Of a stretch of DNA of 33,283 nt, positions 3,447-28,861 are shown piece after piece. This DNA is from a virus. The stretch lies in the IMG/VR virus record IMGVR_UViG_3300044641_004686, positions 1 to 33,283 of that record. One strand, written 5' to 3'. The notes beneath the pieces were generated by a model. That model searched no databases. It saw only the letters and a list, made by a program, of their open reading frames with translations, and had not been told where the DNA came from. Numbering within the stretch: the first letter of the stretch is position 1; the number at the start of each line of letters is the position of its first letter. The translations under genes were made by a program, and so were the position numbers.

Positions 3447-3881
3447 TGAAAATGGATCTAAGTCTGGATTAGGAATCATACTCCAAGCTTTTTCAGCATT
3501 GATTCCAGTGCCTCTTGCAATTTGTGTTTCGAGAGCAACTTCTTTTAATAGAGCTAGAGCCTCAGTGTATTCTCCATCAGTCAACATACTTTCGATTTGG
3601 TCAGCGTCTTCCTGATTTAGTTTAACTCGATATACGACTGCATGTCTTTGTGAATTGGCACGAGCTCTCATTTGCAGCATGCCTACTTGGTTTGACCAGC
3701 CTTTTCTAAGTTTATTACCTGCGCCAGGTTCGTCTAACCCAAGTTCAGCGAGGCGATCTGCGTCGTCTGCATCTGACATATCTGGTTCTTTAATAAATGA
3801 TTCAATGCCGTTGCAATCTGCAAGGCCAACCCACCAAGTTGGCGTTGAATACGTTTCAAATAAGGGTACATATTTTCTCAT
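3444..3881 (-). CDS. Unknown protein with N-terminal capsid-targeting-like peptide
   Basis: This 145 aa protein begins MRKYVPLFETYS, a variant of the tag described in the findings, with LFE as a possible (I/L)xE processing site. Residues 36-51 include DADRLAELGLDEPG, a motif resembling ones in other tagged proteins (5015-5551, 17543-18109). The rest is helical and charged, with no recognised domain and no membrane segment. Its start overlaps the stop of the gp25 gene by 4 nt, so the two are translationally coupled, and it is the last gene before the terminator. Late expression and presence in the virion are inferred from the tag and context. Confidence 0.75.
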   Translation of the reverse strand: MRKYVPLFETYSTPTWWVGLADCNGIESFIKEPDMSDADDADRLAELGLDEPGAGNKLRKGWSNQVGMLQMRARANSQRHAVVYRVKLNQEDADQIESMLTDGEYTEALALLKEVALETQIARGTGINAEKAWSMIPNPDLDPFS

Positions 3882-4258
3882 ACATCAAATAATGCGGCAA
3901 ACACAGATGTGGTGCCATCTATTTTTATATCAAGGGCAAGCGTTGATTTGAAAGGATCGTCTGCGCTGTCTAAATAAGCAACCGACGATTTAATATTATA
4001 CTTTCTGGAATTCAACACATAGTCTTGAATTAATTGATTAACTTCCTGTTCCATTGGTGCAACACTCAGCGTATCAAATTCAAACAGGTACTTCTCCATA
4101 CCGAATCCAAAATCCGGTTCTCCAAGAACTTCTCCTTTCTTTGTTAAAATAGTCATCCTAACTTGCTGAATAGTATTTTCAATATCATCCTTAACTTCGT
4201 AGAGGTTAGGCTGATAGTTAGGATCCTCTGAATTTCTAAAATATAGATCTACTGCCAT
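3878..4258 (-). CDS. Baseplate wedge protein, T4 gp25 / GPW family
   Basis: The 126 aa product belongs to the gp25-like (GPW_gp25) family, whose usual length is about 110-135 aa. The family core is visible as KKGEVLGEPDFGFGMEKYLFEF at about 39-60, the segment that in T4 reads like PGERVMRPEFGS in other members, followed by the helix EQEVNQLIQDYVL and C-terminal strands. In contractile tails gp25 sits in the baseplate wedge and helps nucleate the sheath. Despite its old lysozyme label, the family is structural. It is the second-last gene of a short late operon starting at 5551. Confidence 0.9.
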   Translation of the reverse strand: MAVDLYFRNSEDPNYQPNLYEVKDDIENTIQQVRMTILTKKGEVLGEPDFGFGMEKYLFEFDTLSVAPMEQEVNQLIQDYVLNSRKYNIKSSVAYLDSADDPFKSTLALDIKIDGTTSVFAALFDV

Positions 4259-4262
4259 TGTC

Positions 4263-5000
4263 TTATTGTCTTATTAGGAACATCCAATCTGCTGTGTTCT
4301 CGCCCTTCATCATTTCCATAACTTGAGTTAATTCATTCTCTGCACGAGTTACCAGATTTGTATAATTTACCTTAACTCCACCAGGTAGGTTGTAATCGAA
4401 GCTAGTTAAGAGTTCGCCGAGTCTAAGTTTTGCTTTTGCTCTAACGTATCTCTGGAAAAGTTCATCATTGTATAAATCTTCCAGTTCAATCTTCTTAGCT
4501 ACTTCTAATACCATACCATTAGCGATCGGGCTTCGGCCCATGATGATTAAATCACGAGTATTACGATTATAATTATAGGCAAATGTATCTAGTACAAAGC
4601 CCTTAGTTAAATCCAAGAAAGAGAACAGGATTGTTCTGTACATGATAGATTCACCAATAAATGGTGTTAAAAAGATCTCCGAACCAACAAACTTATTTTC
4701 AGAAAAATCTCGGTCAATTGACCCAAAGATTGAAGCGCCTCTAGGCTCTCTACACTGATGCACAAATTGTACACAATCGGGTAGTCTGATTGCTCTTTCC
4801 TTTTTAAATCGATCGTTTTTGAAAACGTCCTGTGGAATAGCTAAATATCTGGGCTCAACTGCATGGCGCCAGTTATCATAGAAATAACCTTCAGCGATCT
4901 TAATGATTCTCGCGATCTCCTTTTCTGGAATTACATACGGTAATGCTTTGGAAAAGGTTAATTCTTCTTGAATATCTGCTATTAATTCAGCTTGCGTCAT
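4263..5000 (-). CDS. Probable neck/tail structural protein, unknown family
   Basis: The 245 aa protein starts with a helical segment (ELIADIQEELTFSKALPYVIPEKEIARIIKIAEGYFYD), a pattern often seen at the start of phage neck or tail accessory proteins. It continues as mixed alpha/beta without catalytic motifs. It lies 4 nt upstream of gp25 and downstream of a tagged protein, so it is probably part of the virion. I cannot match it to a named T4 gene; gp13/gp14-type neck protein or a wedge subunit are possibilities. Confidence 0.75.
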   Translation of the reverse strand: MTQAELIADIQEELTFSKALPYVIPEKEIARIIKIAEGYFYDNWRHAVEPRYLAIPQDVFKNDRFKKERAIRLPDCVQFVHQCREPRGASIFGSIDRDFSENKFVGSEIFLTPFIGESIMYRTILFSFLDLTKGFVLDTFAYNYNRNTRDLIIMGRSPIANGMVLEVAKKIELEDLYNDELFQRYVRAKAKLRLGELLTSFDYNLPGGVKVNYTNLVTRAENELTQVMEMMKGENTADWMFLIRQ

Positions 5001-5014
5001 TTAATTAAGCTTTT

Positions 5015-5551
5015 TTATGCAGCTGGGGTTTCTACAACCTTTAAGGCTGCAACTTCTGCTCTCTTTTTAGCTAGATCTGCTTTTCTAACTTCTAAAGCTG
5101 CACGGTCTGCGGCCAATGTTGCTTTTTGAGTCATTGAATTTGGATCTAGTGGTTTAATATTAGCTTCTCTCGCTTCAATATCAGCTTCAGCCTTTGTAAT
5201 TTCCGCGTCTTCTGCTTCAATTTGGGCTTTTTTCTGTGCAACCTCAACATCAGTTGCTTCAAATACGTCGTCTTCCTCGTTTTCGTAATCTGTTTCGCCG
5301 TCTTGTGCCATCATAGCAGCTTCATCGAATAGCTGAGAAGATAATTCGTAACCTGCCTGTTTTGCCTCCATTTTAGCGCTTTCGTAACTATCAGGTAGTG
5401 AACCGCCAAAGAAGTCTAAAACTGAAAATGCATCTCTGAATTTCTTTGCTGAATCAAGACCAACGTCTTGCATTCTTTCTCTTTCATGTCTATCAAATGA
5501 CTCCTTCAAATTAGAGTTAAAGTCATCGAATTTTAAAATTGTTGATCCCAT
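5015..5551 (-). CDS. Coiled-coil protein with N-terminal capsid-targeting-like peptide
   Basis: This 178 aa protein starts MGSTILKFDDFNSNLKES, a tag of the ILKFDDF type, with LKE as a possible processing site. It is followed by RHERERMQDVGLDSA, resembling the RMxxLGL motif of other tagged proteins. From about residue 100 to 172 it is a long Ala/Glu/Lys/Asp-rich helix (repeats such as AEDAEITKAEADIEAREANI), most likely a coiled coil. A late promoter variant ends 21 nt upstream. Charged helical composition recalls T4 prohead core or internal proteins, so a core/scaffold role is possible but not shown. Confidence 0.8.
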   Translation of the reverse strand: MGSTILKFDDFNSNLKESFDRHERERMQDVGLDSAKKFRDAFSVLDFFGGSLPDSYESAKMEAKQAGYELSSQLFDEAAMMAQDGETDYENEEDDVFEATDVEVAQKKAQIEAEDAEITKAEADIEAREANIKPLDPNSMTQKATLAADRAALEVRKADLAKKRAEVAALKVVETPAA

Positions 5552-7007: not shown

Positions 7008-7286
7008 TTATCGGCGATCGTTTAATAGATCTTGTACATACGAATCACGCTGTTGGTTTAAATAAGCCTCACGTTCAGTAGATTTCTTAATGATCATATC
7101 AGTTAGTTGATCGATTTTAGCATCCTTTTGATCAAGTAGTTTTTCACATCTAGCTAGCTCAGCTTCAAATAGCTGATTCTGGTAGACTAGAATACCGACC
7201 ATTAAAATAATCGTAAACGATTGCTCCTTTAGCTTATTGAAAAAAATATCAACAAAGCCAGTTTGTGTAGCTTTTTGGTTTTCCAT
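7008..7286 (-). CDS. Small membrane protein with coiled-coil tail
   Basis: The start is taken at MENQKATQ (7286), because the longer reading would overlap the upstream gene. That gives 92 aa, with one transmembrane helix (FTIILMVGILVYQ, about residues 20-38) and then a charged heptad-like helix (AELARCEKLLDQKDAKIDQL). The topology resembles an inner-membrane spanin (Rz type), but there is no partner lipoprotein next to it, so spanin is only one option. It starts 4 nt after the stop of the HAD-nucleotidyltransferase gene. Confidence 0.7.
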   Translation of the reverse strand: MENQKATQTGFVDIFFNKLKEQSFTIILMVGILVYQNQLFEAELARCEKLLDQKDAKIDQLTDMIIKKSTEREAYLNQQRDSYVQDLLNDRR

Positions 7287-7290
7287 ATAA

Positions 7291-8538
7291 TTATTCTTTA
7301 GTAAAGTCCTTAAAGCGTAAGACCTTACTCTCATTCATAAATCCATCTCTATACGTTGGGTGTTGAACTAAACGTTGAGTTGGCACTGGATTAATATCTT
7401 GCCTAGAGACCTTTTTGTTTAGGGTAAATGCACTGGCTGGCACAGTGTACTCGCCAGTTTCATTTGTTTTAAGCATTTTCCAAATGGCCTTTGGGTTAAC
7501 TTGATCTGGGATGCCCTGTTTGAAAGACTCAAAATCATCAATCTTTAAAAATCGGCGCAAATCCTTACCATATAGATCCTTTTTGCCATCGCTAAATTTT
7601 GCTCGGCCAGTATTAACCTTTTTGACGTTTTTAATCTTACCTGAATATTGGTGTACTTTATCGAATCTAGACATATCATCTGGCGCAGCATACAACGTAA
7701 TTGCATGGTTTGGTGCATCCGGTGTTTCGCCAAGTGCATAGATGAATCGATATGCGCTACGAACTGGTGAAATGCTAGTTTTTTCGATTATGACATTAGG
7801 CTCTTTGCCCAAGTACTTCTTTAGAATCTTAATTGCAATATCTGCGTCAATACCTCCTTCTGGCTTGTCAGATACGTAGATTCTAACTTGATCATTGTCC
7901 GCTAGTGCCTGCTTAATGATCTCATAGTGACCCTTGTGAGGTGGCTTAAATTTACCTGTGAAAATTCCGATTTTCTTCATTGTAATCTCTGGCAACTGGT
8001 CTGGCTTGATATGCTCAGTCCTAATTTTAATAGGATATTGCTTCTCAAGCAGTTTTGCGTGCTTTAGATTATTTATGTCGTCGTCAAAGAAAATAAATTG
8101 CGAATAGCCTTTCTCAATCAATTTTTTAAAGGCCTGTTGCTTCTTTTCCGCATTATTGCCTGTAAATTCAGTGCCAGGTTCATTTACTGCAAAAACTAGA
8201 TCCGGATGTATATCTACTCCGTGACTTAACATAAATTCTCTGACTAGTTGGGCATCGCCGCGTGCAGTGATAATGCCGACTGCACCCTCTTTTGCATAGA
8301 CCTCTTTCATAATATCAAGAGTCCACTCAACAATTGTGCCTGCTCGTAAAATATCTGGATCGTCAAATTGTGAAAAGTCAATCGCGTGATTGGCCTTTCT
8401 TTCATATTCATTGAATTCCTTTGGCGACAGGTAAAATTTTTCGCCAGACCACGAGTCAGTGACCTCGATCTGAGCATTAGTTACTACTAACGTATCGTCA
8501 AGGTCAAAAATAGCAATAGTGTGTCCTCGAATGGCCAT
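7291..8538 (-). CDS. HAD phosphatase / HxGH nucleotidyltransferase fusion with C-terminal capsid-targeting-like peptide
   Basis: With the start at MAIRGHT (8538, 6 nt after a TATAAT box) the product is 415 aa. Residues 1-175 are a HAD-type hydrolase: nucleophile motif FDLDDT (11-16), TARG at 91-94, and acidic motif FFDDD at 150-154. From about 188 a nucleotidyltransferase of the cytidylyltransferase/NadR superfamily follows, with GIFTGKFKPPHKGH carrying HxGH at 201-204. The usual C-terminal ISxTxxR is replaced by a segment around KDLYGKDLRRFL. A nucleotide, NAD or cofactor role is likely but the substrate is unknown. The last residues, MNESKVLRFKDFTKE, match the tag seen at the N-terminus of other proteins. 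Confidence 0.85.
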   Translation of the reverse strand: MAIRGHTIAIFDLDDTLVVTNAQIEVTDSWSGEKFYLSPKEFNEYERKANHAIDFSQFDDPDILRAGTIVEWTLDIMKEVYAKEGAVGIITARGDAQLVREFMLSHGVDIHPDLVFAVNEPGTEFTGNNAEKKQQAFKKLIEKGYSQFIFFDDDINNLKHAKLLEKQYPIKIRTEHIKPDQLPEITMKKIGIFTGKFKPPHKGHYEIIKQALADNDQVRIYVSDKPEGGIDADIAIKILKKYLGKEPNVIIEKTSISPVRSAYRFIYALGETPDAPNHAITLYAAPDDMSRFDKVHQYSGKIKNVKKVNTGRAKFSDGKKDLYGKDLRRFLKIDDFESFKQGIPDQVNPKAIWKMLKTNETGEYTVPASAFTLNKKVSRQDINPVPTQRLVQHPTYRDGFMNESKVLRFKDFTKE

Positions 8539-8544
8539 ATAGTT

Positions 8545-8550
8545 ATTATA
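8545..8550 (-). promoter_or_regulatory. TATAAT -10 box, early-type promoter
   Basis: A GTATAATA element ends 6 nt before the ATG at 8538. No good -35 box is seen at the usual distance. The spacing implies a leaderless or nearly leaderless transcript and supports the shorter start. Confidence 0.55.
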
Positions 8551-8560
8551 CTCAACAAAT

Positions 8561-8585
8561 AAAAAATGGGACCGAAGCCCCATTT
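8561..8585 (-). terminator. Rho-independent terminator with UUCG loop
   Basis: A 7-bp stem AAATGGG (8564-8570) / CCCATTT (8579-8585) encloses, on the - strand, GC-TTCG-GT, a stable UUCG tetraloop. A T-rich tract follows. It ends the 8605-9384 gene just upstream of the promoter of the next gene. Confidence 0.85.
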
Positions 8586-8604: not shown

Positions 8605-9384
8605 TTATCTCCAACCCTCTTTCATCATGCATTCCTTTAAGTATTCCATACATGCTTGAACATAACCTTCATAAGTATGAGCATCATCTTCGTCTTCATG
8701 ATAGCCTACTGCTTCTTTAACTAGGTGATCATTACACATAGACTCAATTACCATCTTAGCATTATCTGAGCAGCCTGCGCCTTCATTCATAGGTTCATGT
8801 GGAAAAAATGGAGAATCATCGTCATCATCAGTTTCCATCGGCTCAGTGTGTTCTTTGCAATCTGAACAGATTCCACCCATTAGAATTGGAGCTCCACAGC
8901 ATTCTGACTCACCACCTTCATATGCGTCAGTTACGTCCCAGCTTTCAGAAATAAATTGACCGAATCTCATTACTCGAGCCTCATTCATTTGTTCAGAATC
9001 GTCATCCATTTCTGGAGCATTCATATCTGCTGTAACATCGCCAATTTTAATGTCATAATCACCATCACCAGCTTCTTCGATTTCGCAGTTGATCGTATAA
9101 ACTACATCATTGTGTTCAGCTGATAGAGTGCCTTTGTAGACTCCCTCTTCATCGGTTTCTTCTTTTTCATCATCCATTTTAAAGTCTAGCGCGACTTCTT
9201 CACCCTCAACTGTTTTAACTGTGATTGTAATAAAGTCACCACCATCCGCATCACCAAGAGAAATGATCTCTGGCTCTGAATGACCCTCTTGTAATTCGTG
9301 GATAGTTGCCGAATCTTCGCCGATTGGCATATCATTTTCGTCTTTCATAAACTTAGGTATGCTTTTGTTTCCAAATTTTCCCAT
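8605..9384 (-). CDS. Acidic zinc-ribbon protein with internal capsid-targeting-like peptide
   Basis: The 259 aa protein has three parts. Residues 1-130 are very acidic and strand-rich. Residues 133-148 read MNEARVMRFGQFISES, matching the tag found at the start of other proteins, with ISE as a possible cleavage site. Residues 150-259 include a four-Cys ribbon (CCGAPILMGGICSDC) and a helical tail with more Cys and His. Cleavage after ISE would separate the acidic and zinc parts. The internal Met at 133 could also be a second start. A late promoter variant lies 23 nt upstream, inside the end of the ClpC-like gene. No family is recognised. Confidence 0.8.
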   Translation of the reverse strand: MGKFGNKSIPKFMKDENDMPIGEDSATIHELQEGHSEPEIISLGDADGGDFITITVKTVEGEEVALDFKMDDEKEETDEEGVYKGTLSAEHNDVVYTINCEIEEAGDGDYDIKIGDVTADMNAPEMDDDSEQMNEARVMRFGQFISESWDVTDAYEGGESECCGAPILMGGICSDCKEHTEPMETDDDDDSPFFPHEPMNEGAGCSDNAKMVIESMCNDHLVKEAVGYHEDEDDAHTYEGYVQACMEYLKECMMKEGWR

Positions 9385-9396
9385 TTTAATATGTTC

Positions 9397-11409
9397 TTAT
9401 TTTGAGTTATTTATTTGGGAAGAATCGTCATTAATTATCTTTAGTTCATCTGCTCCGGTCTCATGCGTGATGACCAGATGATCTCCATCCTGGATCTTAT
9501 TGTCAATATAGGCCTCGGCTAAAAGATCCTCTATGTGTGACTGGATCATTCTGCGAAGCGGACGAGCTCCATACTTCTCATCGTATCCCTTATCTACAAT
9601 AAAATCTTTGGCTTCTTGTGTTAATTCCACAGTGTAGCCGTTTTCGTTAGTTCTTTCGTATAAATCGGTCAATTCAGCTTCAATGATCTTTTGGATATCA
9701 GCCTTTTTAAGACTGTCAAATACAATAATATCGTCAATGCGATTGAGAAATTCTGGTGCAAACTGCGCGCTAAGTGCATTTTGTAAAACCGAGGTAGCTA
9801 ATTCCTTTTGTTTTTCAAGCGAATTTGCTGTTGCGAAACCAATCCCAGTTCCAAAATCCTGTAACTTTCGGGCACCGACGTTTGATGTCATAATAATCAC
9901 AGTATTCTTAAAGTCGATTTTACGACCCAACCCGTCAGTCATATGACCCTCATCCAGTACTTGCAGCAGAGTATTAAAGATGTCGGGATGGGCCTTTTCG
10001 ATTTCGTCAAGCAGCACGACCGAATATGGCTTACGCTTAACTTTCTCAGTTAGTTGACCTCCCTTTTCATAACCGACATAGCCTGGAGGGGCTCCTGCGA
10101 GTTTACTACTGGTAAACTTTTCTCCAAATTCAGACATGTCAACTCGAATAAGAGCATCTTCTGAATCAAACATGAATTTAGCAAGCTGTTTCGCTAGCTC
10201 AGTCTTACCGACACCAGTCGGACCCAAAAAGATAAATGTGCCGATTGGCTTTTTCTTAGACTTCAGACCTGCTCTTGCTCTGTGAATTGCTCGAGTTATC
10301 TTTTTGACTGCATGGTCTTGTCCAATTACTCTTGAAGTCAACCATTCCTGCATACCAGCAAGTCTCTCCTTTTCGGAACCCCTTAGTCGACTAACACTAA
10401 TGCCGGTAATGTTTGCAACAACATTGGCAATATCGTCGTCATTAACACCAAGTCTATTACTCTTTAGAGTCTCTTCCCAATCTCGTTTAGCCGCTTCAAT
10501 TTCATCAATAACTCGGCGTTCCTCGTCTCGTAGCCGAGCAGCAGCTTCGTATTGCTGAGCTTCAACTGATTGTTTCTTTTGTTCGCCGACAACTATCAAC
10601 TGAGCTTCGAGTTCTTTAATGTTGTCTGGCACCACGACGCCAGCGATGTGCACGTTCGCGCCAGCTTCATCCATTAAATCGATTGCTTTGTCAGGCAAAA
10701 ATCTGTCCTGAATATATCGATTGCTGTAAGTAACACAGGCATCTAGCGCCTCCTCCGAATATCGAACCATGTGATGGTCTTCATATTTCTGTCGGATGTT
10801 TTGTAGGATCTGTCGAGTCTCTTCAGCAGTTGATGGATCAACTGTAACTTGCTGAAAACGACGACTTAGTGCGCCATCCTTTTCTATTGATTCTCGATAT
10901 TCATTAATCGTTGTTGCACCAATACATTGAATTTCTCCTCGAGCTAGCGCAGGCTTCAGGATGTTAGCTGCATCTAGTGAACCACTTGCGGAGCCAGCAC
11001 CAATCAGTGTGTGAATCTCATCAATGAATAAGATTATATTTGGATTAGCTGCAACTTCTTGAATCACATTTTCCATGCGCTCCTCAAACTGGCCACGATA
11101 TTTTGTACCAGCGACTAGGGTTGAGAGTTCAAGAGCAATAATCTTTTTATCGAACAGCACTCTTGGGCAAGTTCTTTCGATTATCATCTTGGCTAAACCT
11201 TCAACGATGGCAGTTTTACCGACACCAGGTTCTCCAATCAGAATTGGATTATTCTTTTTTCTGCGAGCTAGTATTTGGCTGCATCTTTTAATTTCCTTTT
11301 CACGGCCAACGACTGGATCAAGACGACCCTCTGCCGCCAGTTGAGTTAAGTCTTTTCCGAAATTATCAAGTACCGGTGTTTTGCTTTGATTTGATTGCTG
11401 TTTTGCCAT
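9397..11409 (-). CDS. ClpC-like double AAA+ unfoldase lacking the N-terminal domain
   Basis: The 670 aa protein is a HSP100/Clp ATPase. AAA1 has Walker A GEPGVGKT (59-66) and Walker B ILFIDEIH (126-133). A short middle region at 283-299 carries a UVR-like helix (AQQYEAAARLRDEE), as in ClpC/ClpA-type proteins and unlike the long ClpB coiled coil. AAA2 has Walker A GPTGVGKT (396-403), LLDEIEKAH at 466-474 and the arginine region PLRR near the end. Residues 523-525 are IGF, the position of the ClpP-docking tripeptide. The double Clp N-domain that binds adaptors is missing (bacterial ClpC is about 810 aa). Use of host ClpP or a phage protease is inferred. Confidence 0.95.
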   Translation of the reverse strand: MAKQQSNQSKTPVLDNFGKDLTQLAAEGRLDPVVGREKEIKRCSQILARRKKNNPILIGEPGVGKTAIVEGLAKMIIERTCPRVLFDKKIIALELSTLVAGTKYRGQFEERMENVIQEVAANPNIILFIDEIHTLIGAGSASGSLDAANILKPALARGEIQCIGATTINEYRESIEKDGALSRRFQQVTVDPSTAEETRQILQNIRQKYEDHHMVRYSEEALDACVTYSNRYIQDRFLPDKAIDLMDEAGANVHIAGVVVPDNIKELEAQLIVVGEQKKQSVEAQQYEAAARLRDEERRVIDEIEAAKRDWEETLKSNRLGVNDDDIANVVANITGISVSRLRGSEKERLAGMQEWLTSRVIGQDHAVKKITRAIHRARAGLKSKKKPIGTFIFLGPTGVGKTELAKQLAKFMFDSEDALIRVDMSEFGEKFTSSKLAGAPPGYVGYEKGGQLTEKVKRKPYSVVLLDEIEKAHPDIFNTLLQVLDEGHMTDGLGRKIDFKNTVIIMTSNVGARKLQDFGTGIGFATANSLEKQKELATSVLQNALSAQFAPEFLNRIDDIIVFDSLKKADIQKIIEAELTDLYERTNENGYTVELTQEAKDFIVDKGYDEKYGARPLRRMIQSHIEDLLAEAYIDNKIQDGDHLVITHETGADELKIINDDSSQINNSK
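9408..9415 (-). promoter_or_regulatory. Late promoter variant AATAAATA
   Basis: The octamer differs by one base from the T4 late box. It lies inside the 3' end of the ClpC-like gene, 23 nt upstream of the ATG at 9384, so the downstream gene can be expressed separately. Confidence 0.55.
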
Positions 11410-14486: not shown

Positions 14487-14834
14487 TTAATATTTAATCA
14501 CGTGTATTTTAAGACCTCTCTCAGTCGCGATATCAATCATGTGTTTGGTACCTCGACTCCGCTCATCCCAAAACGCGATTAACCAATCGGCGTAGCCGGC
14601 CATCTCTTCGTTTCTTAAATATCCTGCTCGCTTGCCAAATTTATCCCAATCGGGTTGGAATCTACGTATTGATAAATTTCTTTCCATTGCATAGAATTCG
14701 CCAAGTCGATCTGCACCTCTTGCTGTACCTGAGACAATTTCAAAATCTGTGCCAACTAGCAGTTGATCACAAGTTGTTTTAAGTAAATCTTCATTAGTGA
14801 AATCTCGACCACCTGCGATAATTACCTTTATCAT
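14487..14834 (-). CDS. SLOG-fold protein, YspA/DUF2493 type
   Basis: The 115 aa protein has the motifs of the YspA-like SLOG family, a Rossmann-type nucleotide-binding fold: IIAGGRDFTN (6-15), IVSGTARGADRLGE and RNEEMAGYADWLIAFWD, then RGTKHMIDIA. SLOG proteins bind nucleotide-derived ligands and are common in phage and defence contexts. Whether this one is a sensor, an enzyme or a sponge for signal nucleotides cannot be decided. Its ATG shares one base with the stop codon of the 2H phosphoesterase gene, so the two are coupled, which may link them functionally. Confidence 0.85.
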   Translation of the reverse strand: MIKVIIAGGRDFTNEDLLKTTCDQLLVGTDFEIVSGTARGADRLGEFYAMERNLSIRRFQPDWDKFGKRAGYLRNEEMAGYADWLIAFWDERSRGTKHMIDIATERGLKIHVIKY

Positions 14835-15376
14835 TAATTCGTTTTAATCTCAATGCGATCCTTTTCGCCAGACGGTTTTGAATAAATTGCGTGGGTTGGT
14901 TTTACTTTAAATCGATGACCATCTAACATATTTGCCCAGCGCTTACCTTTGCCGGGTTTGAGATAGGCAATCGTCATGTGTGGATGATAATCTGGGAAAT
15001 CTGAAGTAAATGGGTGTTGCTTTAAATCAGCATTAGCCTCATGTAAATTCTTACCAGCAATATCAAATTTCAATACGTCATACTTTTCATTTTCAAATAA
15101 TGACGCATTGTGTGCATCAAGCAAATCATATTTGTACTTATCAAGAATTGCTTGTACTTCTTCAGTCGTTACGCCTTCATGTAAACCATATAGCAGAGTA
15201 CAGTGAGGCTCCGTTTCGTAACCGTATGACTGATCATCATCTTCAGTATAAACATCAATTGGATCAATTGCATCATGTATTTTGTTCATTTCTGTAAAAT
15301 CAAAATACAGCATTACACAACCATAATCATAGGTTTGTTTTTTCTCGTTAACGAATTCAGTAAATTTCTTAATCAT
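14834..15376 (-). CDS. 2H phosphoesterase-like protein with N-terminal capsid-targeting-like peptide
   Basis: The start is set at MIKKFTEFVNEKKQ (15376), 5 nt after a late promoter box, giving 180 aa. The two HxT motifs of the 2H family are present: HCT at 58-60 (PHCTLLYGL) and HMT at 133-135 (HPHMTIAYL). 2H enzymes cleave 2'-5' or cyclic phosphodiesters, and T4 Acb1 of this superfamily degrades the cyclic nucleotides of CBASS immunity. The N-terminus KKFTEFVNE fits the tag shared by virion-linked proteins here. Packaging and early counter-defence are inferences. The stop overlaps the start of the SLOG gene. Confidence 0.85.
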   Translation of the reverse strand: MIKKFTEFVNEKKQTYDYGCVMLYFDFTEMNKIHDAIDPIDVYTEDDDQSYGYETEPHCTLLYGLHEGVTTEEVQAILDKYKYDLLDAHNASLFENEKYDVLKFDIAGKNLHEANADLKQHPFTSDFPDYHPHMTIAYLKPGKGKRWANMLDGHRFKVKPTHAIYSKPSGEKDRIEIKTN

Positions 15377-15380
15377 TTTA

Positions 15381-15602
15381 TTATTTATTTGATCTGAGGC
15401 AGATCTCAACATGATACTTTTTTAATAAGTCTAGTCTGGTCGTGCAGCCAGTAGTTTTGCTCAAGTCGATACTAAATGAAAATGATCTAATCCATCTGTA
15501 CGATTTAGCATCTCGACCTCTATTTATGGCATACCAACTAAATTTCCATTTTTTAAATACTCGACGTGTTCCGGTTTTTGCTAGGGTAGTTTTTGAATTC
15601 AT
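15381..15602 (-). CDS. Small basic protein, unknown
   Basis: This 73 aa frame fills the space between the lipoprotein-like gene (2 nt upstream) and the 2H gene (4 nt downstream). It is basic and aromatic (TRRVFKKWKFSWYAINRG). No family is recognised. An opposite-strand frame also exists here, but the spacing and strand favour this one. It should be treated as probable rather than certain. Confidence 0.5.
   Translation of the reverse strand: MNSKTTLAKTGTRRVFKKWKFSWYAINRGRDAKSYRWIRSFSFSIDLSKTTGCTTRLDLLKKYHVEICLRSNK
15382..15389 (-). promoter_or_regulatory. Late promoter variant AATAAATA
   Basis: The octamer ends 5 nt before the ATG at 15376, the same spacing as at 481-488 and 18115-18122. This supports the short start of the 2H gene. 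Confidence 0.65.
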
Positions 15603-19062: not shown

Positions 19063-20133
19063 TTAGCTCCAATAGCCTTTATCTCCATTTGCATGGATGA
19101 TTCGGCCCCAATCGGCTGGGACATCAAAACCTGGATTATCAAAGACTAGCCAAAGAGTCTTTTTGCCCCAGTTTTTAGGAGCAGGCGGCAAGGCATTTGT
19201 CAAATAACCATCTGTCATAATGACAACGAAATCAACATTACCTTTTAAATTCTTATCGACCCAGCTAATTACGTCCGGAATAGCTTCAGTACCTCCGCCG
19301 GTTCTAACCTTTGCAAAATCATCTGGTGTTGGCTTTTTGAAACCTTTAACCTGGAAAGGATCGACTACTGTATTTGCAAACGGCAATACTGAAACCGTCT
19401 TGATCTTTTTAGCTTTAACGATACCGACTACTTCTGCTGCTAATTCTGGAAAAGCTGCGGCGATTGAACCACTAACGTCCATTGCGACAACTGCATTGTC
19501 TAGTGCATTATCTGTATCTTCTAGACCATATCGGTATTGGCCAGCCGAAACGTGACGACGGTTAGGTAATTTAAATGAGCTAGATGAAGCAAGTCTTCCA
19601 ATAAATCTTCTGAGTTCTTGTCTCCAGTTAACCTTTGGTTCTGACAGCTCCATGATTCTCTGATAGATCGCGCCTTTACCTGCGCCAGCGGACTTTGATC
19701 TTGGATTAAGATGAGTTTGTGCAAGTTTGCGACCTAAATCTTTCCAATCTTGCTCTGACATGTCACGGCTACCTTCAGCATCAGTTGCTCCCTCTTCGCC
19801 AGCAATTTGGCGGCCTTGGGCCTTAGTGATTACTTCGCCAGTCATAGGACCTCTAACGACAGTAACTGTTTCAATGTCATCGTCTGAGAAGTCGCCGCTT
19901 TTTACCATTGGTCCTTCGCCGGATTTAGATTTACCGCCTTGACCATTTTGACCTTGGCCGGATTGACCGCCAGCTTGATCTCCATCTTGAGATTGGCCGT
20001 CACCGTCTTGGCCTTCGCCAGATTCAGTATCACCAAGTGAATCGGTCTTTTGTTGGCTCGGCTGAGATGAGCCAGATCCACCACCCTGTCCAGGCTTGTT
20101 AATCTTTACTATTTCATCTAAACTCGCTCGCAT
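19063..20133 (-). CDS. VWA-domain protein of a MoxR/metallopeptidase operon (DUF2201 C-terminal type)
   Basis: The 356 aa protein has a Gly/Gln/Ser/Asp-rich disordered N-terminus (about 14-75) and a C-terminal von Willebrand A-like domain. The metal-ion adhesion site is visible as DVSGS (219-223), TGGGTE (278-283) and MTDG (306-309). VWA partners of MoxR ATPases usually bind substrates or link the ATPase to its target. Together with the HExxH gene upstream it corresponds to a DUF2201 protein split into two genes. The start overlaps the preceding stop by one base (TAATG). No tag is visible in this member. Confidence 0.85.
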   Translation of the reverse strand: MRASLDEIVKINKPGQGGGSGSSQPSQQKTDSLGDTESGEGQDGDGQSQDGDQAGGQSGQGQNGQGGKSKSGEGPMVKSGDFSDDDIETVTVVRGPMTGEVITKAQGRQIAGEEGATDAEGSRDMSEQDWKDLGRKLAQTHLNPRSKSAGAGKGAIYQRIMELSEPKVNWRQELRRFIGRLASSSSFKLPNRRHVSAGQYRYGLEDTDNALDNAVVAMDVSGSIAAAFPELAAEVVGIVKAKKIKTVSVLPFANTVVDPFQVKGFKKPTPDDFAKVRTGGGTEAIPDVISWVDKNLKGNVDFVVIMTDGYLTNALPPAPKNWGKKTLWLVFDNPGFDVPADWGRIIHANGDKGYWS

Positions 20134-20846
20134 TATCCGTTTACTATTTTAATTGCTTCTTCTTTTGAGATTGGATCATAATCGACTTCGCCAGTTTCTT
20201 CATTAATCCCAGTAACAACTCCATATCCACCAGTTCGTTCATTTCTAACGACATCACCGACAGACAGAGGTTGATCTGGTCCACCGTCTCCTTGGCTTTT
20301 TTGCTGTTGTTTTTGTTGCTGCGGCCTAGGTGCAGATTCTACTTCGCCATAGATTTGTTCAGCATTCATGCCCTTATACTTATCGTCGATCAAACCCCTA
20401 AGGTCATTTGCGATTTCAGATTTTGAAATAATTCCATCATCCGCGAGCATCAAGTTAATTTCATAATCGCCAGCAATATTCCACTTTTCTGCATCTCTAC
20501 CCTCCATTCTAGCAAAGTGCAATAGCGCACAGTGTAAAACTTCGTGGCATAGAATAAACACTATCTGTTTCTCAGTTAGCGGAGCAAAGAAATCGGGATT
20601 AATGAATAAGTGAGTTCCGTCAACTGCTGCGGTTGGAATTTGTGGATGCCTAGTGTAAATGATCTTTAGCTTATAGGCAAGTTCCGCAAAGAATCTATAT
20701 CTACCAGTTAGGATTTGAAAAGCATACGATACCTTGATTCTAGTAATTTTAGAATTTGGATCATCTGCTTGATTCTCTAAAACCAGGTTAGATTCAGCAA
20801 ATTGACTGTAACGATTAAAACTATTCCAATCTAGGAGTCTTTTCAT
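20133..20846 (-). CDS. HExxH metallopeptidase-like protein (DUF2201 N-terminal type) with capsid-targeting-like peptide
   Basis: The 237 aa protein carries HEVLH at 101-105 within FILCHEVLHCALLHFAR, then KWNIAGDYEINLML, the pattern of the putative metallopeptidase domain that normally precedes a VWA-like domain in DUF2201 proteins. A Gln-rich linker leads to a small C-terminal beta domain (VGDVVRNERTGGYGVVTGIN). The N-terminus (SFNRYSQFAESNLVLE) resembles the tag but is weaker. Start and stop each share one base with neighbours (TAATG), indicating translational coupling. Protease activity is inferred from the motif. Confidence 0.85.
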   Translation of the reverse strand: MKRLLDWNSFNRYSQFAESNLVLENQADDPNSKITRIKVSYAFQILTGRYRFFAELAYKLKIIYTRHPQIPTAAVDGTHLFINPDFFAPLTEKQIVFILCHEVLHCALLHFARMEGRDAEKWNIAGDYEINLMLADDGIISKSEIANDLRGLIDDKYKGMNAEQIYGEVESAPRPQQQKQQQKSQGDGGPDQPLSVGDVVRNERTGGYGVVTGINEETGEVDYDPISKEEAIKIVNG

Positions 20847-22411
20847 TATTGTCCAAGGTTTGCGGCTTGAATTTCTCTAGTTGAACCAGGATATGCAGCC
20901 AAGAATTTTTTAAGACCAGCTTGTGTTGCTGGATATGTGTTGGTTGCAACCTTTGTTTGAATCTCTCTAACTGCAGTTAGGATCTGAATCGCAACAGTTG
21001 GGTCGCCAACTCTAATAATATACTCAAATAGGTTCTCGATTTCCTGATCAGTTAATTCTCTATCTTTATATTCGTAAGCGATTGCTGATGCCAAGATATA
21101 AGCTGCATCGATTTCATAGTCTTCACGACCTCTAGCTTTAGGAGGTAGTGGCGCATTCATTGGATCAGAATACACCATCTTCATTTTATCTAGATCGATC
21201 TTTTGAGATAGCGTGTAGTAACCCATGAACATTTGAGCAGCTTCTTTACCAACGTTTGGTGCAATAGCTTCATCTTCAATAACTTCTGGAGTTAAAGTCG
21301 TACCTGATTCAGCTGCTTCTTTCTTTAGGTTTTTCCAAGCAACCGCGGCTGCTTCCCATGAACGTGGGCTTGGGAAAATCGTACCAGAGATATTTGGATC
21401 ATACTTGTGGAAGAATTCTTGGCCCTTAGTCCAGTTCAAGAATGAAATGATACGTGGATCGAAAATATCTTCACCTGCTGCAGATTTTGCAGAAAGTGCA
21501 AATTTGCTATAGTCCTTAATTGATGGTGAATAGTTTACTTGTTGGAAACGGTTACCGAGAGCTGAACCAAATTCTGATGTATTTGTTTCATCATCTTCCA
21601 TTCGGTTAGAGGCTGCAACAATTGTCCAATTGCTACCAAGTTTCCAACCGCCGTCCATCTCTCTATCTAGTACGAGTTTCAAACAGATGTTACGAATAGC
21701 TTCTTTAGCTCTTGATAATTCGTCCAAGAAGATGATTCCACCTTTACCGTCTGGGCCGTTTGCTGCATCATTACCAGCTTGGCCTTCAGATTCGTGATAA
21801 ACTGGTAACCATGCTTGTGGAACACGAGTTGCTCTACGTGAGAATCTGTCCTGTGCAACCGCCGAACCTTGTACTTCAGGTAGGAAGAAATCTTCTGGCG
21901 CATAGGTTGTCAACTGTACGTCGATCATACGACCGCCATATTGCTTTTGAATCATTTTAACAACTGATGTTTTACCAATACCTGGAGCTCCCCATATCAT
22001 TAGGGGACGTTCGTCCTTGTTCTTAAGGATTCTATTAAGAATGCTAAGAAGTCTCTCAGATCCCACATTTGGAATACCTGCTTGAGGATTTGGAAAATCC
22101 AATGGAACAACTGCTTCAGCAACTTCTTCTGAACCAGAATCACCTTCTCTGGTAATTTCTGGCATTTCGGTAATACCTAATGCTTTTGCATCTTCGGCAG
22201 ATGGAATAATGGTTACGCCGTATGGGATTGTGCCGTTAGCTCCATCTTTTGTGCGTTCTCCGCTCAACTGTGCTTTTAATGCGCTAAGGAAGTCTCCAGC
22301 TTTTCCAAGCAGACCCTTAACTGTGTCTGCAACCTTTTTACCAAACTTACCCAAGCCTTCGTTATTTAAATTCTCGGTGATAAAATCTGAGTACGATTTA
22401 ATGATTCGCAT
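20846..22411 (-). CDS. MoxR-type AAA+ ATPase with N-terminal capsid-targeting-like peptide
   Basis: The 521 aa protein begins MRIIKSYSDFITENLN, a near-perfect tag with ITE as a processing site. It has a linker of about 100 residues, then an AAA+ module: Walker A GAPGIGKT (141-148), Walker B IIFLDE (226-231), a sensor region VAASNRMEDD and an arginine-finger region LGNRFQQV. MoxR ATPases work with VWA and metallopeptidase partners in protein remodelling, and both partners are encoded directly downstream. Expression is from a late promoter variant 22 nt upstream. A role in head maturation or as an injected machine is inferred. Confidence 0.9.
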   Translation of the reverse strand: MRIIKSYSDFITENLNNEGLGKFGKKVADTVKGLLGKAGDFLSALKAQLSGERTKDGANGTIPYGVTIIPSAEDAKALGITEMPEITREGDSGSEEVAEAVVPLDFPNPQAGIPNVGSERLLSILNRILKNKDERPLMIWGAPGIGKTSVVKMIQKQYGGRMIDVQLTTYAPEDFFLPEVQGSAVAQDRFSRRATRVPQAWLPVYHESEGQAGNDAANGPDGKGGIIFLDELSRAKEAIRNICLKLVLDREMDGGWKLGSNWTIVAASNRMEDDETNTSEFGSALGNRFQQVNYSPSIKDYSKFALSAKSAAGEDIFDPRIISFLNWTKGQEFFHKYDPNISGTIFPSPRSWEAAAVAWKNLKKEAAESGTTLTPEVIEDEAIAPNVGKEAAQMFMGYYTLSQKIDLDKMKMVYSDPMNAPLPPKARGREDYEIDAAYILASAIAYEYKDRELTDQEIENLFEYIIRVGDPTVAIQILTAVREIQTKVATNTYPATQAGLKKFLAAYPGSTREIQAANLGQ

Positions 22412-22433: not shown

Positions 22434-22441
22434 TATTTATC
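22434..22441 (-). promoter_or_regulatory. Late promoter variant GATAAATA
   Basis: The octamer lies 22 nt upstream of the MoxR gene ATG at 22411 and would drive the three-gene operon. Confidence 0.65.
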
Positions 22442-22464
22442 TAACGGGCTGAGCGATTTCCTAT

Positions 22465-22493
22465 AAAAAACAAAGGGGCCTTGTGGCCCCTTT
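22465..22493 (-). terminator. Rho-independent terminator after the HTH gene
   Basis: A 9-bp stem AAAGGGGCC (22472-22480) / GGCCCCTTT (22485-22493) has a 4-nt loop and is followed on the - strand by a G and then six T. It separates the 22535-22885 gene from the MoxR operon. Confidence 0.85.
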
Positions 22494-22534
22494 GCTTCAC
22501 CTAAATTGAACAGTTACAATCTAAAGGTCAGTGA

Positions 22535-22885
22535 TTAACCTTCAAATACGATTACAGTTGCTTTAACGCCATACTGCTTTGTCATCTTTGAAATTACTTC
22601 AGTAATTTCGCTGAACATTGCAGAACTAGTTGTTTGTACTGTAGCAGTCTCTGCAGCCGCTTTAGCTTTTGCTTTAGTGCGAACGCGGATTCCGCCGTTG
22701 ATACGAGTCTCCAAACCTAAGGTTCCCTTACGGGCCCAAACGGATGGAAGCGTACGGTCTAGCTTTTTAGCGATTTGCTTGCCGCTGAGACCTGCATTTA
22801 CTGAATCGATCAACATCTGATCTTCTGTGGCCGTCCAGCGTTGGCTGTGACGATCCGGAGCGTTGGAAATTTTCTTTCGTGCCAT
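22535..22885 (-). CDS. SANT/GcrA-like helix-turn-helix DNA-binding protein
   Basis: The 116 aa protein has a tri-helical DNA-binding module at about 15-58: RWTATEDQMLIDSVNAGLSG, then KQIAKKLDRTLPSVWARKGTL, a Myb/SANT or GcrA-like helix-turn-helix. A basic Ala/Lys linker and a C-terminal helix/strand follow. It probably regulates phage or host transcription. It is transcribed alone: a TATAAT box is 34 nt upstream and a terminator follows. Confidence 0.75.
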   Translation of the reverse strand: MARKKISNAPDRHSQRWTATEDQMLIDSVNAGLSGKQIAKKLDRTLPSVWARKGTLGLETRINGGIRVRTKAKAKAAAETATVQTTSSAMFSEITEVISKMTKQYGVKATVIVFEG

Positions 22886-28019: not shown

Positions 28020-28169
28020 TCAATTTGCGATAAGTTCACAAAGTAATTTATTATACGCTTTTTGTGAGTTAAGTTTTGAAAGCTTTGCTCGACAAGTTGG
28101 CCCACATGTTTGTTTGTCTGCTCGGCCAATAAGTTGGCCTTTGCAAATTTTACATTTACGATCAACCAT
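28020..28169 (-). CDS. 49-residue zinc-ribbon protein
   Basis: Translation of this gap gives 49 aa: MVDRKCKICKGQL, then GRADKQTCGPTCRAKLSKLN and a helical end. Cysteines CxxC and CxxxC with GRADKxxC match the small DUF2116-like ribbon family. The start ATG shares one base with the stop of the upstream gene (TAATG), a coupling pattern seen elsewhere in this window. Function is unknown; nucleic acid binding is plausible. Confidence 0.75.
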   Translation of the reverse strand: MVDRKCKICKGQLIGRADKQTCGPTCRAKLSKLNSQKAYNKLLCELIAN

Positions 28170-28852
28170 TATGCTGCGATCTTAAGAGAAGTTAGATATT
28201 TGGTGAGCAGTGCTTTAAAAGGTTTCTCAAGAGTCCGATAACTATCGCTACTTTTAATTAACCGTTTCATATCACCAGTTGCAGTATATGCAACAAATTC
28301 GTCAACCAACACTGCTTTGTGATAACCCATCCGGCTTAGCGTACTTTTACCTTCTACTAACAATTCAGCAGGCACGTCTTTCAATAAGCTTGAAGCTTCT
28401 TTCTTAAAAGTTGGTTCTGTGTACCACAGTGCGTGGCTTAATTCGTGTCGAAGATTTTTATCAGTAATATCTTTTACTCCGACTAAATATGTGTCTTCTT
28501 CAGACACACAATATTGATTAAAGATTTGATGTAAAATCTCATCCATAAAGATGTCATATGGAGTATACTCTCCAGTAAAAACATCCAGACTCTTTACGAC
28601 TGTTTTAATTGGGATATTATATGCAGCCCAATCCATTGGGTAATCGAATGTGCCAGTTGCCATGTTTCTCTCAACCGAATACCACCTCAAATAATCCCAA
28701 ATATCAAAGTCCGTATTTTTGAAACGCGGTGAAGCTGATTCATAGAACTCTTGCGCTCGGAGAAAGACCATGGCCCGATCCCAATTGCTTGGAATTTCAA
28801 GAGCGAAAATCTTTTCGCTAACTTGTGTGAGCTTGTAGTTAAACGGTTTCAT
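28169..28852 (-). CDS. Unknown protein with metallopeptidase-like HExxH variant
   Basis: With ATG at 28852 (the TTG at 28858 is less likely) the product is about 227 aa. It contains LRHELSHALWYTEPTF (HELSH, an HExxH motif), then VDEFVAYTATGD, where the Glu may be a third ligand. No known peptidase family is matched otherwise. A role as a metal-dependent hydrolase or peptidase is inferred from the motif alone. A TATAAT box lies 9 nt upstream of the ATG, and the stop overlaps the start of the zinc-ribbon gene. Confidence 0.7.
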   Translation of the reverse strand: MKPFNYKLTQVSEKIFALEIPSNWDRAMVFLRAQEFYESASPRFKNTDFDIWDYLRWYSVERNMATGTFDYPMDWAAYNIPIKTVVKSLDVFTGEYTPYDIFMDEILHQIFNQYCVSEEDTYLVGVKDITDKNLRHELSHALWYTEPTFKKEASSLLKDVPAELLVEGKSTLSRMGYHKAVLVDEFVAYTATGDMKRLIKSSDSYRTLEKPFKALLTKYLTSLKIAA

Positions 28853-28861
28853 GGTCAAATT

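Follow-up and report, generated by a model that had tools for sequence, protein, structure and literature searches.

A three-gene operon of a T4-like phage encodes an ATPase that carries at its N-terminus a peptide (hereafter the tag) resembling the capsid-targeting sequences (CTS) of phage T4. The operon lies on the minus strand (22411-19063) of IMG/VR virus record IMGVR_UViG_3300044641_004686, analysed over its full 33,283 nucleotides (the window), and encodes a MoxR-type AAA+ ATPase, a putative metallopeptidase and a VWA protein. As judged from sequence, the tag may well point to the phage head, four lines of evidence being in agreement: resemblance to T4 internal proteins (IPs), an N-terminal unit shared with a head-cluster protein, late timing and an S77 prohead protease. 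Our reading, which we consider quite possible though short of probable, is that the operon specifies a late-made, head-addressed unfoldase/peptidase for which ejection along with the DNA is more probable than action on the prohead. The phage MoxR-DUF2201 pair is among the commonest phage gene pairs without a tested function, and a head-address tag on its motor, shared with a head-cluster protein, gives the first sequence-based pointer to the workplace of the machine, one that a T4 packaging assay could test. Should it be packaged, a phage particle would be delivering an AAA+ protease-like machine, a case of which we know no described example.

The features of the operon and its upstream region, with the evidence for each, are the following:

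20846-22411, minus: MoxR-type AAA+ ATPase gene, 521 aa (Pfam AAA_5, 4.9e-9; PHROG 1297, 6.6e-51)
20133-20846, minus: DUF2201_N putative metallopeptidase gene, 237 aa (Pfam; AlphaFold predicted local distance difference test, pLDDT, 84)
19063-20133, minus: VWA (DUF2201) gene, 356 aa (Pfam; residues of the metal ion-dependent adhesion site, MIDAS)
22370-22411, minus: capsid-targeting-like peptide MRIIKSYSDFITEN, ATPase residues 1-14 (motif; position-specific scoring matrix, PSSM; conservation)
22355-22363, minus: N-E-G (NEG) motif, ATPase residues 17-19, followed by a predicted amphipathic helix (alignment)
22061-22369, minus: remainder of the ATPase N-terminal extension, residues 15-117 (alignment; low-confidence helices in the model)
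21968-21991, minus: Walker A GAPGIGKT, ATPase residues 141-148 (alignment)
21719-21736, minus: Walker B IIFLDE, ATPase residues 226-231 (alignment)
20532-20546, minus: HEVLH motif, peptidase residues 101-105 (alignment)
19465-19479, minus: MIDAS DVSGS, VWA protein residues 219-223 (alignment)
22434-22441, minus: late-promoter-like GATAAATA, at -30 of the ATPase ATG (motif search)
22463-22494, minus: intrinsic-terminator-like hairpin and T run, 3′ of gene 22535-22885 (direct sequence reading)

Adjacent genes overlap by one base, the A of TAATG, at both junctions, and the predicted hairpin sets gene 22535-22885 apart from the operon. The gene order is ATPase-peptidase-VWA in the window's group and peptidase-VWA-ATPase in L007 and others. 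An earlier reading made from the letters alone (hereafter the sequence-only reading) had described three TAATG-coupled genes for a MoxR-type ATPase, an HEVLH protein and a VWA protein, with a late promoter variant, a strong capsid-targeting-like peptide on the ATPase and a weak one on the peptidase. Its coordinates and overlaps are correct, the promoter variant is the element listed above, the ATPase peptide is real and above chance, and the weak peptide on the peptidase is, as that reading says, degenerate.

The ATPase N-terminal peptide MRIIKSYSDFITE fits a strict tag motif, defined as [YFW]..[FYW][ILVMFAT].E within the first 30 residues, and is like T4 IPs both in its N-terminal position and in its sequence. 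This motif occurred at five gene N-termini of the window, compared with a mean of 0.8 and a maximum of 4 in 500 shuffles. Our set of such viral ATPases comprised 85 distinct sequences; those with more than 60 residues ahead of the AAA core were classed as extended, which gave 33 extended and 52 un-extended ones. The strict tag was present in 20 of the 33 extended ATPases and in none of the 52 un-extended ones, with a looser form in 4 further extended ATPases and in 1 of the 52. This head-targeting-like N-terminus is conserved at about 25-30% identity. Within the extended clade, mean pairwise identity was 0.34-0.35 for residues 4-22, 0.30-0.43 for the AAA core and 0.14-0.20 elsewhere in the extension, and residues 4-14 were conserved to the level of the core. 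Since the tag and NEG motif are conserved like the core and the linker is not, the tag is under selection. The NEG motif, whose E18 is present in 89% of 27 extended members, is similar to the sites cut by T4-type prohead proteases ([LI]xE), from which we infer that it could be cleaved. When a PSSM built from 21 ATPase tags was run on T4, ipII and ipIII, both known CTS proteins, were among the best N-terminal matches. By a PSSM whose training set was the extended ATPases themselves, tag-like peptides were found in 27 of 377 neighbouring genes of extended loci versus 0 of 587 in un-extended loci. In the window, tag-like peptides also occur internally (MNEARVMRFGQFISES) and at the extreme C-terminus (NESKVLRFKDFTKE) of the products of 8605-9384 and 7291-8583 (both minus), and similar internal and C-terminal peptides are found in G001, a 180 kb relative (61940-62605 and 87535-89088). 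We rejected the notion that the tag is confined to phages with a gp21-type protease, since S77-protease phages also hold un-extended modules.

Several observations point from the tag to the head. A protein of L266 (11763-12611), whose gene is the second one after that for the major head protein (PHROG 138), matched a hidden Markov model (HMM) of the first 50 ATPase residues with an E-value of 1.6e-8 over 45 residues (MKKYSEFISESHMNEGFFKNL...), whereas the best shuffled sequence reached 0.2. Proteins at the equivalent place in L267 and L265 gave weak matches (E 0.014 and 0.11), and small genes directly 3′ of the major head protein were tagged in G001 (two genes) and in L264. The late-type promoter NATAAATA precedes 35 of the 219 G001 genes, compared with 1.1% of background 60-mers, and was more frequent before tagged genes than before others both in G001 (6/14 versus 29/205, P 0.013) and in the window (4/8 versus 5/46, P 0.02). 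Each of the eight ATPase genes of the window's subclade, the window's own included, has it upstream. Finally, an S77 (gp21-type) prohead protease, the kind with which T4 clips such tags, is encoded in G001 and in seven other extended-clade records; the window, a fragment, shows no prohead protease gene. These findings partly support the virion link proposed by the sequence-only reading, as regards apparent late expression, the head-targeting-like ATPase N-terminus and the unit found on a head-cluster protein. As a separate observation, the gp21-like S77 protease and a gp22-like scaffold are apparently encoded in one frame of about 613-699 codons in L016 (G001 66909-68921), L265, L267, L269 and L264, whereas they are separate genes in T4.

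A second enzyme of the window also appears to be tagged. The gene at 14834-15412 (minus) encodes an Acb1-type 2H phosphoesterase (Pfam Acb1, 28.7 bits against a cut-off of 27); it probably starts at M13, so that its N-terminus, MIKKFTEFVNEKKQT, is capsid-targeting-like. This N-terminus is kept in L202, L204, L207 and L227 and not in other relatives. The protein may possibly be a packaged enzyme directed against the CBASS defence.

To place the tagged form in its family, we used a tree of the AAA core, which comes from a quick search and has long branches. The extended ATPases were separated from the rest by a single branch (32 rows; Shimodaira-Hasegawa-like approximate likelihood-ratio test, 100), and the window ATPase sits, by this tree, in one well-supported clade of uncultured phages. 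The extension is about 115-165 residues long in the clade and is absent from the ATPases of N4, phAPEC6 and S-TIM5. Splitting of DUF2201 accompanies it, as the ATPase is extended at every one of the 22 loci where DUF2201 is split, and none of the 52 un-extended loci is split. The tree requires one change for the extension, two for the split and four for the tag, and it offers only one independent pair for a joint gain of tag and extension. No cultured phage with the extended form was found in the searched collection, where only LR756500 turned up, and the search for this form gave no match in Tenacibaculum phage PTm1. Three ATPases (L257, from Lak-B4, L068 and L080) lack the tag and have another N-terminal domain ahead of the same NEG and helix element.

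The second and third genes encode one DUF2201 protein in two pieces. The peptidase matched DUF2201_N (E 2.6e-28), and the VWA protein matched DUF2201 (E 2.7e-11) together with the C-terminal part of DUF2201_N; the domain pair PF13203 and PF09967 scored 99.8 and 44.1 bits on the separate proteins, against cut-offs of 23.2 and 26.4. On PHROG 1314, a single model of 394 positions, the peptidase (P0002) covers positions 17-162 and the VWA protein (P0003) covers 172-391. Because the two in succession span the model from end to end, the description of a DUF2201 protein split in two beside its usual ATPase holds literally. We rejected the HNH endonuclease label of PHROG 1314, given that the domains are DUF2201_N and VWA; the family consists of DUF2201 metallopeptidase-VWA proteins, and its label now stands in many GenBank annotations. 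The HEVLH motif is kept in 25 of 27 aligned peptidase homologues and lost in L054 and L056, where the DUF2201 gene at 7166 has NQGIIH in place of HExxH and the ATPase alongside is intact. As the VWA and ATPase parts stay where HExxH is lost, the core activity may be remodelling and not cutting. The model of the peptidase (pLDDT 84) includes a small C-terminal beta domain at about residues 196-236, and its best Foldseek match was the minigluzincin selecase (E about 1e-3, probability 0.93-1.0), with an SPRTN-type protease as a lower-ranked fold neighbour in the PDB. An HExxH motif within a predicted zincin fold makes this protein a putative zincin metallopeptidase. In the VWA protein the MIDAS (DxSxS..T..D) is intact, with D219, S221, S223, T282 and D308 invariant among seven aligned homologues; a PDB search by sequence gave no match for this protein. 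In L047, two adjacent VWA genes of one operon (3487-4470 and 4474-5481) look like a duplication.

The ATPase scored above the cut-off with Pfam AAA_5, the dynein/midasin/CbbQ-type model (36.8 bits), and below it with the MoxR model AAA_3 (PF07726; 14.4 bits, cut-off 27), which files it on the CbbQ/NorQ-like side of the MoxR group. The Walker A, Walker B, sensor 1, Arg finger and sensor 2 residues of the AAA+ module (G141-K147, D230/E231, N269, R288 and R350) show little or no variation across 38 aligned homologues. A profile search matched midasin (E 1e-20). In the AlphaFold model (pLDDT 79) the extension forms low-confidence helices; among the top PDB matches were NorQ and CbbQ, the closest MoxR proteins (target template modelling score about 0.6), with FtsH first by E-value. 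PF20030 (bpMoxR) scored 27.0 bits, exactly its cut-off, with part of the model covered, and no beta-propeller partner of the kind found in bpMoxR-vWA ternary conflict systems was recognised near the operon among the neighbours, which were scanned in part. A defence-system identity was rejected, PADLOC having returned weak P-loop matches only.

The ATPase-DUF2201 pair itself is known and widespread in phages, 121Q-like jumbo phages among them, and what is new is its extended, tagged and split form. Among 50,697 phage records, 716 matched the ATPase, 516 the peptidase and 171 the VWA protein, all at less than 60% identity, and a fused DUF2201 protein stands beside the ATPase in N4 (gp24/gp25), S-TIM5, RaK2 and phAPEC6. 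The sequence-only reading had known of no described function for this combination in phages. No experiment was found by us either, but the combination is common, and the same hypothesis was published for the MoxR-vWA pair of group 2.2 jumbo phages, proposed to serve virion assembly and peptidolytic processing (Iyer et al. 2021, PMC7824862); the idea was thus independent but not new. The jumbo-phage pair shares with the window the ATPase family, the DUF2201 domains, adjacent genes and a host phage with a T4-type head, and differs in that its peptidase and VWA parts are fused and no extension or capsid-targeting-like N-terminus is described; the term 'capsid targeting' does not occur in the text of PMC7824862. 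N4 gp24/gp25 and the Schitoviridae homologues likewise consist of an ATPase followed by a DUF2201 protein (PHROG 1297 and 1314), but the N4 ATPase has 352 aa with neither extension nor tag, the DUF2201 protein is fused and the genes lie outside the structural cluster. Asteriusvirus phAPEC6 encodes a MoxR ATPase and an 'N4 gp25-like' protein (gp265c/gp264c), again un-extended, untagged and with DUF2201 fused. The bacterial NorQ-NorD and CbbQ-CbbO systems combine the AAA+ fold with a MIDAS-containing VWA partner, but have no metallopeptidase or N-terminal tag, and their clients are metabolic enzymes. In these systems the VWA protein finds the client and the ATPase, driven by ATP, remodels it. 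T4 IPI-III and Alt carry an N-terminal MKTYQEFIAEA-like peptide and an [LI]xE cleavage-type site like the window ATPase, but the internal cargo of T4 includes no AAA+ ATPase or DUF2201 protein.

Our preferred mechanism is as follows. Late in infection, the MoxR-type unfoldase and its DUF2201 partner, with metallopeptidase and VWA as two proteins, would be made, and the tag would bind the head core, so that the machine is packaged with the untagged VWA protein carried along, bound to its tagged partners. The gp21-type protease would clip the tag at FITE/N or NNE/G as the head matures, and the machine would be held in the head and then ejected with the DNA. In the new host, the VWA protein would use its MIDAS to recognise a protein complex, on which the ATPase ring would pull, and the zincin peptidase would cut the exposed part. 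Ejection is favoured because T4 CTS cargo is largely non-essential for assembly and includes an injected counter-defence protein, because the N4 genes lie off the structural cluster with their homologues missing from LIT1 virions, and because the Acb1-like enzyme is tagged. More doubtful is the further idea that an entire T4-like phage clade packages the unfoldase and split metallopeptidase and injects them with further tagged enzymes, the Acb1-like one for example, as a counter-defence or take-over kit that is in place before expression of any phage gene begins.

Several points weigh against a packaged and ejected machine. As the extension arose once, tag and extension represent a single evolutionary event, and T4 ipII reached only E 1.3 against the ATPase N-terminal HMM, too weak a match to establish homology with the T4 tag. 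Because the peptide is frequent and in some proteins internal or at the C-terminus, it may serve more generally for docking. No tag is present on the VWA protein, and hexameric ATPases are large cargo. Mass spectrometry of phAPEC6 virions counts in favour of packaging, having listed the un-extended ATPase gp265c (201564-202889; 6 unique peptides, 19% coverage), which is suggestive of a virion location, not proof; the partner gp264c was not detected, and since thymidylate synthase, RecA-like and single-stranded DNA-binding (SSB) proteins are listed too, gp265c may be carry-over. Virions of the N4-like phage LIT1 contain no homologues of gp24 and gp25.

Some of the evidence for the head would also suit a remodeller of head assembly, in which the tagged ATPase and peptidase, within or upon the prohead, cut or unfold scaffold or head proteins alongside the gp21-type protease and ejection is unneeded. 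This matches the head-maturation version of the sequence-only reading and, in general form, the jumbo-phage proposal (Iyer et al. 2021), and it would account for the late-type promoter, for the tag common to the ATPase and a head-cluster gene and for the presence of a head completion gene within a few genes of the RaK2 and phAPEC6 pair. We nevertheless regard it as rather doubtful: most phages with the module have no tag, N4-like versions lie outside the structural cluster and the virion, the loss of HExxH in L054 and L056 implies that proteolysis is not always needed, and gp21 alone matures T4 heads. The un-extended, untagged majority of the family suggests instead a cytoplasmic machine as in the N4-likes, unpackaged and acting on host or phage complexes, with the peptide serving, for example, membrane or partner binding. 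The frequency of tag-like peptides among neighbouring genes (27/377) and their internal or C-terminal occurrence, unlike a classical CTS, fit this explanation, but we think it unlikely given the N-terminal unit shared with a head-cluster protein, the resemblance of the tag to T4 IPs and the tagged small genes adjoining the major head protein. By far the least plausible is an acquired bacterial MoxR system serving as a regulatory or metabolic auxiliary gene unrelated to phage structure. The fold is nearest to NorQ and CbbQ, DUF2201 is also found in bacteria and copies in cyanophages have been classed as auxiliary metabolic genes; yet the pair is conserved across very different phages, the clade is phage-specific, and the operon has a late-type promoter and no metabolic gene partner alongside.

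Two further genes of the window encode proteins of related types. The gene at 9397-11409 (minus) encodes a second AAA+ protein of 670 aa, ClpA/ClpB-like with two ATPase modules, and that at 28169-28858 (minus) encodes a further HExxH protein (RHELSHALW) with, as far as seen, no sequence relation to the DUF2201 gene.

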